Below, one piece after another: positions 14,631-19,017 of a DNA stretch of 41,828 nucleotides; position 1 is the first letter of the stretch; every line of letters begins with the position of its first letter. The stretch comes from Armatimonadota bacterium (GTDB lineage: Bacteria > Armatimonadota > Fimbriimonadia > Fimbriimonadales > Fimbriimonadaceae). The stretch covers positions 1 to 41,828 of the forward strand of contig JAKOXK010000058.1 in assembly GCA_029781035.1 (NCBI GenBank), written 5' to 3'. The notes under the pieces were generated by a model. That model was not told the origin of the DNA. It did no database searches and saw nothing but the letters and a program-made list of their open reading frames with translations. The position numbers were made by a program, and so were the translations under genes.

Positions 14631-15158
14631 ATGTCTGGAGACCCCGAACTCTTGGAATACAGCTTCAAAGCATGGGAGCGACAGCCTTGGCGGCGGTCTG
14701 CCGCCCTTTCCGGCATGCTGATCGCGGGCGCCTCCGGATTGCTCTTGCTCCACCACCCGGTTTTCGCACTGCTCGGAGCCCTGATCGTGTTCGTGTCGAC
14801 GGCCGAGCTGTTCCTGCCGGTGAAGTACAGGCTCGACAAGACCGAGGCGCGTCAACAAGTGGGATTCAGCGTGACCGCCATCAAGTGGACCGATGTGAAG
14901 CGCATCGTCCGAGTGGACGACGGCGTCAGGCTCAGCCCCTTCGACGCTCCGAACCGTCTCGATGCGTTCAGAGGTGTGTTCTTGCGGTATGCAAGCAACG
15001 AGGACGACGTTTGGAGCACAATACGCGTACTCTGGCATGACAATGCGGTCACTGTGGGAAGAGAATCTGAGTCCGGACCAGAAAGCGGAGATGGTGGAGA
15101 AAGTGGCGCAGGCGATCCACAAGCGCGGTCTGGAGACCCCAGCGATCCTGTTTCTTGA
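14631..15158 (+). CDS. Small membrane protein, PH-like domain
   Basis: A 175-residue protein, not recognised as a named family. Two close hydrophobic segments (about 25-62, AALSGMLIAGASGLLLLHH and FALLGALIVFVSTAELFLP) form a membrane hairpin, followed by a segment resembling bacterial PH-like domains (KYRLDKTEARQQVGF, TAIKWTDVKRIVRVDDGVRL). The last 40 residues are polar and low in complexity (ESESGPESGDGG) and lie entirely over the next gene in another frame. It is probably the first gene of, or a neighbour to, the DUF6754 cluster. The start at 14631 is preferred over an ORF starting at 14615 in a different frame, whose product has no such hydrophobic pattern. Confidence 0.62.
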   Translation: MSGDPELLEYSFKAWERQPWRRSAALSGMLIAGASGLLLLHHPVFALLGALIVFVSTAELFLPVKYRLDKTEARQQVGFSVTAIKWTDVKRIVRVDDGVRLSPFDAPNRLDAFRGVFLRYASNEDDVWSTIRVLWHDNAVTVGRESESGPESGDGGESGAGDPQARSGDPSDPVS

Positions 15159-15363
15159 AATGCACAAGCCGCTCGCCGGCTTGGCTTCGCAGTCGATGGT
15201 CGTCTTCTCGCCCTTCCTGATCCCGTTCCTGGGATTCAAGGGCGTTGACGACTACAGCCAGCTGGTCGGTGACCGAGCCGCGATCGAGAGCGTGATCCAA
15301 CGGCTCGAAGACCTGCGACTCAACCCAACAGGAGGATCTGAAAACCTCGATGCAATGGTATGA
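15037..15363 (+). CDS. Small protein opening the DUF6754 membrane cluster
   Basis: A 108-residue protein of unknown function (start ATG at 15037 or 15043). The N-terminal half is charged and helical (LSPDQKAEMVEKVAQAIHKRG), followed by LETPAILFLEMHKPLAGLASQ and one hydrophobic segment (MVVFSPFLIPFLGF), then a polar helix (DRAAIESVIQRLEDLRL). It looks like a peripheral or single-span membrane subunit. It overlaps the end of the preceding gene by 116-122 bases and the start of the DUF6754 gene by 14 bases, so it belongs to the tightly coupled run ending in recO. TACTCT nine bases before ATG 15043 could be a cluster promoter, but this is weak. Confidence 0.7.
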   Translation: MTMRSLWEENLSPDQKAEMVEKVAQAIHKRGLETPAILFLEMHKPLAGLASQSMVVFSPFLIPFLGFKGVDDYSQLVGDRAAIESVIQRLEDLRLNPTGGSENLDAMV

Positions 15364-16330
15364 CACCGGCGTCCTCGGGATGCTCTTCGTCGTCCTTCTG
15401 GTGCTCTTCATCTTGTACAACATCTACAGGACCGAGCACAAGAAGAAGGATCTTTACATTCGCCGGATCCCCGGCTTGAACGCGATCGACGATGCGATCG
15501 GGCGGTCCACGGAAATGGGCCGGCCTGTGCTCATGGTTCCAGGAATCGGCACGTTGAACGCCATTTCTGTCCAGGCTCTCAGCATTTTCGCGCACATCAC
15601 AAAAGCGGCGGCTCAGTTCGGGACGCCGATCCGCATCTGTCTGGCAGACGCGGCCGTCTACACTGTCGCGCAAGAGATCATCCGCGACGTCTACCAACAA
15701 CAAGGGCTGATCGACCGGTATGACACCGACTCTGTGCGCTTCCTGACGGACCGCCAGTTCGCCTTTGCAGCGGGCGTGAGTGGACTCATCCTCCGCGAGA
15801 AAGTCGCAGCGGCGTTCTTCCTGGGAGAGTGGTACGCAGAGTCGTTGATCTTTGCCGAGACCGCGAACAGTATCGGCGCGATCCAAATCGCCGGTTCGAC
15901 GGAAAAGTCCCAAACACCTTTTTTCATCGCGGCGTGCGACTATGTCCTGATCGGCGACGAGTTCTACGCGGCCAGTGCCTATCTGACCCGTCAACCGATC
16001 TTGGTCGGATCTTTGGTCGGGCAGGACTGGGCCAAGATCGCCATGGCCGCCTGCGTTTTGTTCGGGTTCCTTGTGAACAGCGCTCAACGGCTTCCCGAGA
16101 CCGATATGCACCGTGTGCCCCTGAAAGACGGCGCCCCTGAAGTCTGGAGCCAACTGAGCGACGACCAGAAGGCCGATCTCGAGACCGCTGAAACGTGGGC
16201 CAAGGGCGAAAAGGCCAACGCCACCGAAGACACCGGTCTGTACCGGCTTTTCAACCCGTTCTACTCGAAGGAAGACTTGACTGTGAAACGAGCCAAGAAG
16301 CCTAGCGGTGCGGCAGGAGCCACAGAGTGA
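15350..16330 (+). CDS. DUF6754-type membrane protein
   Basis: A 326-residue protein. One N-terminal membrane helix (about 6-27, VLGMLFVVLLVLFILYNIYR) is followed by a conserved globular region (RRIPGLNAIDDAIGRSTEMG, LMVPGIGTLNAISVQALSIF, FLTDRQFAFAAGVSGLILRE, AAFFLGEWYAESLIFAE) and a second hydrophobic region near 225-245 (WAKIAMAACVLFGFLV). I recognise this as the DUF6754 type, known from Armatimonadota, Chloroflexota and similar phyla, function unknown. An AGGAGG sits 13 bases upstream of ATG 15350. The stop overlaps the next start (TGATG). The C-terminal tail is charged and probably cytosolic. The central domain may bind a ligand or partner, but nothing in the sequence names it. Confidence 0.78.
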   Translation: MQWYDTGVLGMLFVVLLVLFILYNIYRTEHKKKDLYIRRIPGLNAIDDAIGRSTEMGRPVLMVPGIGTLNAISVQALSIFAHITKAAAQFGTPIRICLADAAVYTVAQEIIRDVYQQQGLIDRYDTDSVRFLTDRQFAFAAGVSGLILREKVAAAFFLGEWYAESLIFAETANSIGAIQIAGSTEKSQTPFFIAACDYVLIGDEFYAASAYLTRQPILVGSLVGQDWAKIAMAACVLFGFLVNSAQRLPETDMHRVPLKDGAPEVWSQLSDDQKADLETAETWAKGEKANATEDTGLYRLFNPFYSKEDLTVKRAKKPSGAAGATE

Positions 16331-17280
16331 TGAATCTGCTGGCGCAAGCCGCTCCCAACTACAACTTCTGGGCAGCTGAGCCCGGTTCAGCCCGGCTCTG
16401 GATCATGATCCTGGTCAGCCTGCTTGTTGGCGCCGGGTTCTATGCGGCTCTGTTCTATGCTCCGTCGAGGATCCGAAAGCCGATCGTCTGGACCTTCACG
16501 TTCGCGGGTGGTCTGTTCTATGTCCTTTACTGGGCGTGGCCACAGCCCGTGAGCTACCACCCAGACGACATTCCCAATGGATTTGTCGAGAATGTCGGTT
16601 TCTGGCTCCACGATGCGTTGCCCAGGGTCGCGGACATTTCCAACATCCTCACGGCGTTCCTGCTCGGTCTCGGCATTTACTCACTGCTGAGGATCCATAC
16701 CGGGCGCATCGTGAAGCGGCAGGCCGACAGAGGGTTCAGTGTCGTCTTCTTCATCGCGATGCTCGCGATCCTGGTCTTCGGGTACTGGGACTGGAGCTTG
16801 CGAGAGGCTGACACCAAGGGCCTGCTGCAAGATTCGGCGAACTGGCAATTGGCCAACTTCGGCCAGAATCTCCTCTTCGACGGCTTCTTGCAGCAGATGG
16901 ACTCCGCGATGTTCTCAATGATCGCGTTCTTCATCCTGTCGGCAGCCTATCGGGCCTTCAGGATCCGCTCAGTCGAGTCGACCGTTCTGATGGCTAGTGC
17001 CCTCATCCTCATGGTGAGCCTCCTGACCTTGGTGGTCACAAACTGGGACTCGGGCGTAGCGAATCTCGCCAAGAACGTCTTTCACGACTCTAAGGCCGAC
17101 CCGGCCACGTTCCAGGCCGGCTATCTCAACTGGATGAAACTGAGTTCGATCGCGAACTGGCTCAAGGCCTATATGCAGGTTCCCGCACTCCGTGCGGTGG
17201 ACTGGGGCATTGGCCTCGGAGCTCTTGCGATGGGCCTGAGACTTTGGCTTGGCCTGGAGAAAGGCGGGGTGTCGGTGTGA
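16330..17280 (+). CDS. Polytopic membrane protein of the DUF6754 cluster
   Basis: A 316-residue integral membrane protein with about seven hydrophobic helices (near 21-43, 50-68, 104-124, 136-154, 189-213, 217-239 and 289-308). No known family was recognised. An aromatic-rich loop (WAWPQPVSYHPDDIPNGFVENVGFWLHD) follows the second helix, and a second soluble loop (NWDSGVANLAKNVFHDSKAD) precedes the last helix. The ATG overlaps the stop of the DUF6754 gene, and its own TGA overlaps the GTG of the next gene, so all are translated as one coupled unit. A channel, transporter or scaffold role is possible; no catalytic motif is visible. Confidence 0.72.
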   Translation: MNLLAQAAPNYNFWAAEPGSARLWIMILVSLLVGAGFYAALFYAPSRIRKPIVWTFTFAGGLFYVLYWAWPQPVSYHPDDIPNGFVENVGFWLHDALPRVADISNILTAFLLGLGIYSLLRIHTGRIVKRQADRGFSVVFFIAMLAILVFGYWDWSLREADTKGLLQDSANWQLANFGQNLLFDGFLQQMDSAMFSMIAFFILSAAYRAFRIRSVESTVLMASALILMVSLLTLVVTNWDSGVANLAKNVFHDSKADPATFQAGYLNWMKLSSIANWLKAYMQVPALRAVDWGIGLGALAMGLRLWLGLEKGGVSV

Positions 17281-18248
17281 AGACCGAGAAGACAGGGTTC
17301 TGGCAGAAGCTGCAGAACGTTGATCGACGGGTTCTTTACTTGATCCTCGTCGTGACCACGTCGGTGCTGCTTTCACCGATGTTCGCGAACATCTCGATTC
17401 CTGACGATCCCGAGCCCAGCTCCAAGGCGCTCTACTACAAGTTGATGTCGGCACCGGACAACAAGACGGTGTTCGTACAATCTGACTGGACGATCTCGAC
17501 GCGAGGCGAGAACGCGGCGCATCTGGAGGCTTTGCTCCGGGTACTGATGTCCCGGCATATCAAGTTCGTGATCTTCACGGTCGCCGATCCTCAGGCGCCT
17601 GGGGTCTACCGCGACGTGATCCGTACGATCAATTCGGAGCGAAAGAGCGAGGGTCTCAAGGAGTACAAGCTTTGGGAGGACTACCTCGACCTCAAGTACT
17701 TCCCGAACGCCGAGGGCACGTTGAACGCGATCGCGTCCGACGTAAGAAAGGCGTTTGGAGGGGTCACAGCCAAAGATCCCACGACAGGGCAAGACAGAAA
17801 CGTCTTCGAGTCGCCGGTCCTTGCCAACGTGAGGGCGGTGAGCGACGCGAGCTTGTACATGATCGTGACGGCTTCGAGTTCGATCGACCGCGCCGTCGAG
17901 CGACTGAACGAGAAGGCCACCCTCGCCCTGATGTGCACCGGCGTCATCGGCCCGTCAGCGATTCCGTGGTTCCAGGCAGGGCAAGTGAAGGGTGTGGCGG
18001 TCGGGCTTCGGGGTGGACTCGACGTCGAGTACATGATGAAGCATGGCCTCAACTACGGGTCTGATCCAAAGACTGCAAGGTGGGCCGGACATGAGTCTCA
18101 AGTCGCGCCACCGGTCAGCGAGGGTAAGAGCCTCGCTCGCGCGAACCTCTATTTCCTTTCGTTCCACGGGGCCATCATCCTGTTGATCTTGGCGGTCGTG
18201 GTCGGCAACATCGGCATGTTCGTGACACGAAAGAAGAGGACGGCATAA
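17277..18248 (+). CDS. Twice-anchored extracytoplasmic protein of the DUF6754 cluster
   Basis: A 323-residue protein starting at GTG, overlapping the preceding stop (GTGA). One membrane helix near the N-terminus (about 20-42, LYLILVVTTSVLLSPMFANI) and one near the C-terminus (about 295-316, FHGAIILLILAVVVGNIGMF) enclose a soluble domain of about 250 residues. That domain has alternating strands and helices (TVFVQSDWTISTRGENAAHLEALLRVL, HIKFVIFTVADPQAPGVYRDV, LALMCTGVIGPSAIPWFQAGQVKG), suggesting an alpha/beta fold. Its side is inferred as outside the cytoplasm from the basic residues at both tips. Homologues are expected beside DUF6754 genes. Function unknown; it may be the ligand-binding part of the complex. 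Confidence 0.7.
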   Translation: MKTEKTGFWQKLQNVDRRVLYLILVVTTSVLLSPMFANISIPDDPEPSSKALYYKLMSAPDNKTVFVQSDWTISTRGENAAHLEALLRVLMSRHIKFVIFTVADPQAPGVYRDVIRTINSERKSEGLKEYKLWEDYLDLKYFPNAEGTLNAIASDVRKAFGGVTAKDPTTGQDRNVFESPVLANVRAVSDASLYMIVTASSSIDRAVERLNEKATLALMCTGVIGPSAIPWFQAGQVKGVAVGLRGGLDVEYMMKHGLNYGSDPKTARWAGHESQVAPPVSEGKSLARANLYFLSFHGAIILLILAVVVGNIGMFVTRKKRTA

Positions 18249-18249
18249 G

Positions 18250-19017
18250 ATGAACTCACAAGCGACTCTCGACCTCTTCAACTTCGTCAAGATCACGTGC
18301 GGCGTTTTGGCCACGATCGGCCTGTACAGCGTTCTCTACAAAGAGACCAAGCTGTTCCGGTTCTTCGAACACGTGTTCCTGGGGCTTGCAGCGGGCTACT
18401 CGCTCGTGGCGGTGTGGAAGGATGCCCTCTACACGATGTGGTGGCAAAAGATGGTCGGTCACGCCGTAGACGCCACGCATCAGTCGGCCACGGCTGGATA
18501 CTGGATCTACGCGATCCTCGTCCCGATCGGCTTTATGGCGTACCAGGTGTTCAGCCAGAAGCACAACTGGATGAGCCGGATTCCGATCGGACTGATCATC
18601 GGTCTTTGGGCAGGTCAGCAGGTTCAAATCTGGTGGCAGACCTACGGGCCCCAGATCTATGCGTCGATGTTGCCGGTCTGGCCGACCACATTCAGCTCTT
18701 TGGTCAAACCTCCGGTGACTCCGGACCTGTTGCCGGCCCAGATCGCGGCGATCAACAAAGAGCTGTACCTGACGCAGGCGGTCAACAACCTTATCTTCGT
18801 CGTCACGTTGCTCTCGGCCTTTACCTACTTCCTCTACAGTTTCGAGCTGAAAGGGAAGTTCATGCTCGGCTTCAACAAGCTGGGCCGGTGGATGCTCATG
18901 ATCGGCTTTGGGGCGATCTTCGGCAGCACCGTCATGGCCCGGTTCGCGCTGGTTATCGATCGGATGTTTTATATCTGGATCGAGTGGTTCCAGAGCATGC
19001 ACTTCGGTGGGCGCTGA
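18250..19017 (+). CDS. Polytopic membrane protein, last cluster gene before recO
   Basis: A 255-residue membrane protein beginning one base after the previous stop. About seven hydrophobic segments are visible (near 9-27, 36-56, 78-98, 108-128, 170-192, 205-225, 232-250); tryptophans cluster around SLVAVWKDALYTMWWQKMVG and QQVQIWWQTYGP. Not recognised as a named family. Its N-terminal part (VLATIGLYSVLYKETKLFRFFEHVFLGLAAGYS) is the best region for homology search. Spacing and strand make it the fifth member of the DUF6754 cluster. The recO start (GTG 19007) lies inside its last codons, so recO is translated from the same message. Confidence 0.72.
   Translation: MNSQATLDLFNFVKITCGVLATIGLYSVLYKETKLFRFFEHVFLGLAAGYSLVAVWKDALYTMWWQKMVGHAVDATHQSATAGYWIYAILVPIGFMAYQVFSQKHNWMSRIPIGLIIGLWAGQQVQIWWQTYGPQIYASMLPVWPTTFSSLVKPPVTPDLLPAQIAAINKELYLTQAVNNLIFVVTLLSAFTYFLYSFELKGKFMLGFNKLGRWMLMIGFGAIFGSTVMARFALVIDRMFYIWIEWFQSMHFGGR

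Follow-up and report, generated by a model that had tools for sequence, protein, structure and literature searches.

Results

Genes at the locus

The window (the whole stretch of 41,828 nucleotides that was analysed) carries a run of tightly packed genes, here named P1 and A to E (Table 1). An earlier note, made from the letters alone, had described A to E as five genes coupled end to start, preceded by a gene for a PH-like membrane protein and followed by recO. We found all five open reading frames at the positions claimed, and the junctions, re-read from the sequence, were as described: A and B overlap by 14 bases (15350-15363), B and C share a single base (16330) in the sequence TGATG, C and D overlap by four bases in GTGA (17277-17280), and D and E are separated by one base (18249). 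The gene after E is indeed recO, and its start is most likely the GTG at 19007, which adds an 11-base overlap with E to the earlier description. The gene for the PH-like protein, P1, is likewise present upstream of A, and because its frame ends at 15158 and overlaps A by 122 bases we regard it as part of the unit. In the window the P1 frame reaches further into A than in most relatives, and its last ~35 residues are probably an accidental extension. Elsewhere, P1 homologues lie no more than 200 bases from A in 59 of the 64 cases with both genes on one strand.

Table 1. Genes of the cluster and predicted features of their products, in window coordinates
Feature	Coordinates	Strand	Basis
P1: PH-like membrane protein, first gene of the unit	14631..15158	+	ORF
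A: 108-residue membrane-associated protein, motif TPAILFLEMHKPL	15037..15363	+	ORF, alignment, hydropathy
B: DUF6754 protein, 326 aa	15350..16330	+	PF20539; AlphaFold model
B, first membrane helix (predicted), residues 8-31	15371..15442	+	Model, hydropathy
B, Rossmann-like alpha/beta domain, residues 39-215, predicted cytoplasmic	15464..15994	+	Model
B, second membrane helix (predicted), residues 216-247	15995..16090	+	Model, hydropathy
C: polytopic membrane protein, 316 aa, conserved SAAYRAFR motif	16330..17280	+	ORF, alignment, hydropathy
D: bitopic protein, 323 aa	17277..18248	+	AlphaFold model
D, Rossmann-like domain, residues 47-256, predicted extracytoplasmic	17415..18044	+	Model, charges
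E: polytopic membrane protein, 255 aa, conserved YFFFS and FG.FG.TVMAR motifs	18250..19017	+	ORF, alignment, hydropathy

Distribution and gene order

B is a full member of the DUF6754 family, as the earlier note had recognised (PF20539 in Pfam, 302 bits against a cut-off of 27). The family occurs in 220 of 251 sampled Armatimonadota genomes and in 41 of 149 genomes of the phylum that includes a Planctomycetaceae-titled genome, and was absent from 14 of 14 well-known control genomes and from all plasmids and viral contigs scanned. A scan of species genomes located B in WOR-3, Stahlbacteria, Eisenbacteria, Fermentibacteria, Aegiribacteria, Poribacteria, Coatesbacteria, Edwardsbacteria, Zixibacteria, Latescibacteria, Marinimicrobia, Riflebacteria and Planctomycetaceae, these names being record titles, many of them of metagenome bins.

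When the profile of each gene was run against all open reading frames of the B loci, C, D and E were found downstream of B, in this order and on the same strand, for 119 of 129 B genes, with median gaps of 9, 0 and -4 bases at the B/C, C/D and D/E junctions. DUF6754 homologues are thus not scattered over unrelated contexts, a point on which the earlier note had made its proposal depend. Six of the ten exceptions are contig ends and four are real: an Armatimonadota copy (L039) with B and C only, a WOR-3 locus (L077) with B alone, and two planctomycete loci (L185, L186) in which G, described below, accompanies B, and C-D-E is separated from B. Among 116 loci, all eight genes of what we regard as the full set were present in 19 and all but P1 in 7. 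The operon order P1-A-F-G-B-C-D-E was read in Planctomycetota (L188, L193, L194), in deep Armatimonadota (L165, L166) and in Fermentibacteria (e.g. L101).

Two soluble partners outside the window

Outside the window's own clade, two further genes, F and G, stand between A and B, and where A and F share a strand, A lies within 200 bases of F in 25 of 26 cases. In the window's genome (G000) each is a single gene on another contig, F at C12:118350-119825 (L151) and G at C64:24604-25716 (L152). From gene content, the window appears to hold the membrane half of the system, the soluble half (F and G) having moved away. G was present in 39 of 42 non-Armatimonadota genomes with B, and the F family in 231 of 251 Armatimonadota genomes. 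In the window's genome, as in locus L154, G lies directly upstream of a response-regulator gene.

F is a MutL/GlmL-type protein of 590-640 residues that matches PF13941 (MutL) with 414 bits in the Fermentibacteria locus L101 and with 427.7 bits, against a cut-off of 27, in the window's genome. Its motifs ATDCGSTTTK and DIGGATTD were invariant in 12 sequences, and F is likely an ASKHA (actin/Hsp70-fold) ATPase. Both the phosphate-1 and the phosphate-2 motif are complete, and so the earlier note, which saw no recognised catalytic motif in any member, was right for the genes of the window but not for the system. Compared with GlmL, F carries ~120-130 extra C-terminal residues, and the copy of the window's genome falls under the GlmL cut-offs (NF040745, 220 against 475 bits; glmL_fam, 170 against 204 bits). 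Weak matches to the hydantoinase/oxoprolinase and BcrAD families were also seen.

G is a 375-residue protein with a barrel-sandwich N-terminal part, a middle domain of its own and a KOW-like end. Among 14 members, nine matched RnfC_N (best E 1e-5), seven Biotin_lipoyl and two NqrA_N, and other barrel-sandwich families scored like RnfC_N. F and G also occur as fusions of ~950-970 residues (L175:3322-6171; L176:5803-8724, minus strand; L178:1623-4502, minus strand); these are paralogues that stand alone, away from B-E, in a second use of the pair.

Family and database searches

Of A to E only B received a name; Pfam, NCBIfam, PHROGs and PADLOC gave none for A, C, D or E, and the libraries searched contain no family dedicated to P1, A, C, D, E or G. 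Matches of the members to unrelated known families, which the earlier note had named as evidence against its proposal, were not found. In Pfam, 2 of 28 P1 members matched bPH_6 weakly (E 0.005) and the P1 of the window had no match. PDB sequence profiles were negative for E, F and P1 and also for C and D, whose best E values were 0.3 and 0.5; G had a weak match (best E 0.015), and B matched only fibronectin-III (FN3), in the B proteins of other lineages. No obvious channel or pore motif was found in C or E, and no known motor matched. Homology between B and D and between C and E was considered and rejected (hhalign probabilities of 2.7 and 0.5, respectively).

PHROGs yielded no match for A-E and a weak one for F (E 0.002). 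None of A-G matched a PADLOC model of a known anti-phage defence system, and with B on no plasmid and no viral contig a phage, plasmid or defence origin was rejected.

Predicted anatomy of the membrane proteins

Hydropathy gave one hydrophobic segment in A, two and some weak internal ones in B, six clear segments in C, one at either end of D and five clear segments in E. The earlier note had taken C and E for polytopic proteins of about seven helices each; polytopic they are, and the clear segments, six in C and five in E, make seven the upper end.

The AlphaFold model of B (mb5089eba8ead, pLDDT 88) has an alpha/beta domain between two helices. Because positive charges follow the first helix, the N terminus is predicted to lie outside and the domain in the cytoplasm. 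In deep lineages, B carries FN3 sequence (PDB profile: titin, E 3.5e-10) ahead of its first helix, a position that would place the FN3 domains outside. In the model of D (m798b52c0efba, pLDDT 93.9) the helices span residues 17-31 and 288-322, and since positive charges flank both of them on the side opposite the domain, the domain is predicted to be outside; model and charge rule thus support the earlier picture of D as one helix at each end around an outer domain.

Foldseek searches of the PDB with the B and D models returned nothing at E 0.001 or better. With VIA-align, the best match of the B domain was Sir2 (Z 11.4), and its Z of ~10 to the RCK domains of MthK and TrkA was close to the values for Sir2, phosphoglycerate kinase, transhydrogenase and others. 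The D domain reached a best Z of 8.7, with no clear relative and no PDB sequence match. These being generic Rossmann-type matches only, we rejected a named fold for either domain. The C protein of the exceptional Armatimonadota copy (L039:5318-6925, minus strand, 536 residues; D and E not adjacent) has ~300 additional residues inserted between membrane segments one and two. The insert may be of a glycosidase-like beta-propeller type; its PDB match was not significant (E 0.08).

Co-loss and block duplication

Losses were compared in 179 good Armatimonadota genomes. B was absent from 13, and D from all of these; G was absent from ten, all of them among the 13, and F from 12, ten of them shared with the B-less genomes. 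The co-absences were significant (Fisher p of 4e-14 for B and G, 3e-12 for B and F), but the p values should be interpreted with some care since the tests ignore shared ancestry; the ten genomes in which B, D, F and G are all missing belong to four families (f1, f8, f11, f13). Three genomes (G023, G055, G106) lack B and D and have F and G, and all three assemblies are fragmented. The control protein Omp85 was present in 178 of the 179 genomes, including all 13 without B, and because it is kept there we rejected the explanation that the losses follow loss of the outer membrane. Two members of the window's family with genomes of 1.5 Mb (G181, G185) have lost B, D, F and G and kept Omp85.

Extra copies were present in ten loci, and in every one of them the duplication took in B, C, D and E as a block of four, the copies being 41-61% identical. 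The same loci had at most one each of G, A and P1, and a single F in all but one. This joint duplication, with the other genes mostly single, suggests that BCDE is a stoichiometric membrane core and that the other four subunits are shared.

Neighbouring genes

In WOR-3, Fermentibacteria and one planctomycete, genes for ExbB and ExbD lie on the same strand within ~5-9 kb of the cluster (12 loci: L084, L098, L104, L110, L112; L080, L092, L099, L101, L114, L122; L184). Most WOR-3 and Fermentibacteria loci also have a TonB-like gene with them; between the cluster and ExbB-ExbD, the WOR-3 loci contain a DUF4388 gene and a roadblock-like gene. Confined as it is to 12 loci in three lineages, this neighbourhood could be coincidence. 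Directly upstream of P1 and on its strand, ten loci (L080, L092, L095, L099, L101, L105, L107, L114, L118, L122) carry genes for glycine cleavage, namely gcvPB and, in several of them, gcvT and gcvH as well; these genes stand beside a set whose G has a lipoyl-like barrel-sandwich domain.

Discussion

From its gene order and inheritance, the eight-gene set very probably forms one functional unit. The coupled cluster that the earlier note had seen is real, but the unit has eight genes and not five, with P1, F and G added. The reading that we favor, with a probability of about 0.55, is that the products assemble into a single F-driven complex, an ATP-dependent membrane machine. Support for one machine comes from gene order, block duplication, the fusion of F and G, co-loss, the ATPase motifs and the predicted topology; the physical complex, the ATP coupling and the direction of signal or work we infer. 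The central idea of the earlier note, an undescribed multi-subunit membrane complex, is upheld in that the homologues are not scattered and the members do not match known families, and its count of genes has to be revised, as does its omission of the soluble partners.

According to our hypothesis, B, C, D and E would be the core in the cytoplasmic membrane, with C and E as its polytopic part. The Rossmann-like domain of B would face the cytoplasm and that of D the outside; in deep lineages B would also expose its FN3 domains on the outside. P1 and A may help to dock F, the ATPase, and G, the barrel-sandwich/KOW protein, both of them soluble. Binding and hydrolysis of ATP by F would be relayed via G, A and B to C and E, whose response would change the state of D and of the outer domains, and ATP spent in the cytoplasm would in this way perform work on the envelope side. 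An envelope role is weakly hinted at by the FN3 domains of B, the ExbB-ExbD neighbourhood and the insert in the C protein of L039. At somewhat under even odds, we further suggest that the set represents a widespread and undescribed class of eight-subunit, ATP-driven trans-envelope machines with Rossmann-like domains on both membrane faces and a GlmL-type ATPase as motor, distributed, in the same tentative view, over many mostly uncultured bacterial phyla and part of the Planctomycetota.

Among the alternatives, the one that fares best, though we consider it unlikely, is an enzyme system in which F and G would be an ATP-dependent activase, a lactamase- or carboxylase-type enzyme or a coenzyme-B12 reactivase, and the membrane proteins would handle the substrate. 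The placement of F in Pfam MutL and in the GlmL family, accessory proteins of coenzyme-B12 mutases, points this way, as do its weak hydantoinase/oxoprolinase and BcrAD matches and the Biotin_lipoyl matches of the barrel-sandwich domain of G. However, F lies far below the GlmL cut-off and has its additional C terminus, and none of the operons examined showed a mutase subunit. Moreover, methylmalonyl-CoA-type mutases occur in only 31 of 251 Armatimonadota genomes, and glutamate mutase E (Met_asp_mut_E) is absent from the window's genome and from 250 of the 251, to be compared with an F family in 231. The more specific idea of a coenzyme-B12 mutase reactivase was rejected, the partner enzymes being absent from most F-carrying genomes. 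The sole genome with glutamate mutase E (G063) also has a second GlmL-type gene, of 467 residues.

An ion- or redox-coupled complex seems to us more improbable still. Here G would be a subunit of the RnfC/NqrA kind and B a regulator that binds nucleotides as RCK domains do, with C and E providing the ion path, in line with the RnfC_N and NqrA_N matches of G and with the alignment of the B domain to the RCK domains of MthK and TrkA. Barrel-sandwich and Rossmann folds are generic, however, and the scores of the B domain against Sir2 and phosphoglycerate kinase are no lower than those against RCK; the alignments contain no conserved cysteine sets for Fe-S centres, and nothing like F, an ATPase-type protein, is known from Rnf or NQR. 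Finally, the position of the Fimbriimonadaceae cluster between glmU/prs and recO, unrelated housekeeping genes, could mean that the set is itself only a group of co-regulated housekeeping genes that forms no shared complex, but this is very improbable given that the gene order persists over many phyla in which the neighbouring genes differ, that BCDE duplicates as a block and that F and G, even where they are not linked to the other genes, disappear together with them.

Under the favored reading, a membrane machine driven by F, DUF6754 would gain a function, and so would a branch of GlmL/MutL proteins with no mutase to serve. Six of the eight proteins are without a family name in the libraries searched. 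The set has been retained by roughly nine in ten Armatimonadota genomes as well as in many other phyla, and is lost whole; such broad retention, together with loss as a whole, argues for a general role. In the open-access literature we found nothing on the gene set and no paper that names DUF6754 or PF13941, and we call the set undescribed provisionally, since the search covered open-access texts. The small-genome relatives G181 and G185 are useful natural knockouts, and the role of GlmL-type ATPases becomes directly testable in cultured hosts, a candidate being that of L070, a B-E locus under the record title Chthonomonas calidirosea.

Among known systems, GlmL/MutL (PF13941), the accessory protein of glutamate mutase and ornithine aminomutase, is clearly related to F over a 450-residue ASKHA domain; F differs in its scores under the NCBIfam GlmL cut-offs, in its extra C terminus, in having no mutase partner in most genomes and in an operon that includes membrane proteins. 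The Pfam entry to which B belongs, DUF6754, describes a domain of unknown function only. For G, the comparison is with the barrel-sandwich domains of RnfC and NqrA: its N-terminal domain matches RnfC_N in nine of 14 members, at scores like those to other barrel-sandwich families. G differs in a middle domain peculiar to it and in its KOW-like end, and none of the Rnf or NQR subunits is apparent in the operons read. PilM with PilN-PilO-PilP and MreB with MreC-MreD-RodZ are membrane complexes with an actin-like ATPase partner. No sequence relation of B-E to these emerged, members of C, D and E having no Pfam match to PilN, PilO, PilP, MreC, MreD or RodZ, and the likeness to these complexes is one of architecture only: the predicted layout is the same, a cytoplasmic actin-fold ATPase with bitopic and polytopic partners. 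Judged by that architecture, the set would work most like the complexes that pair an actin-fold ATPase with membrane subunits.
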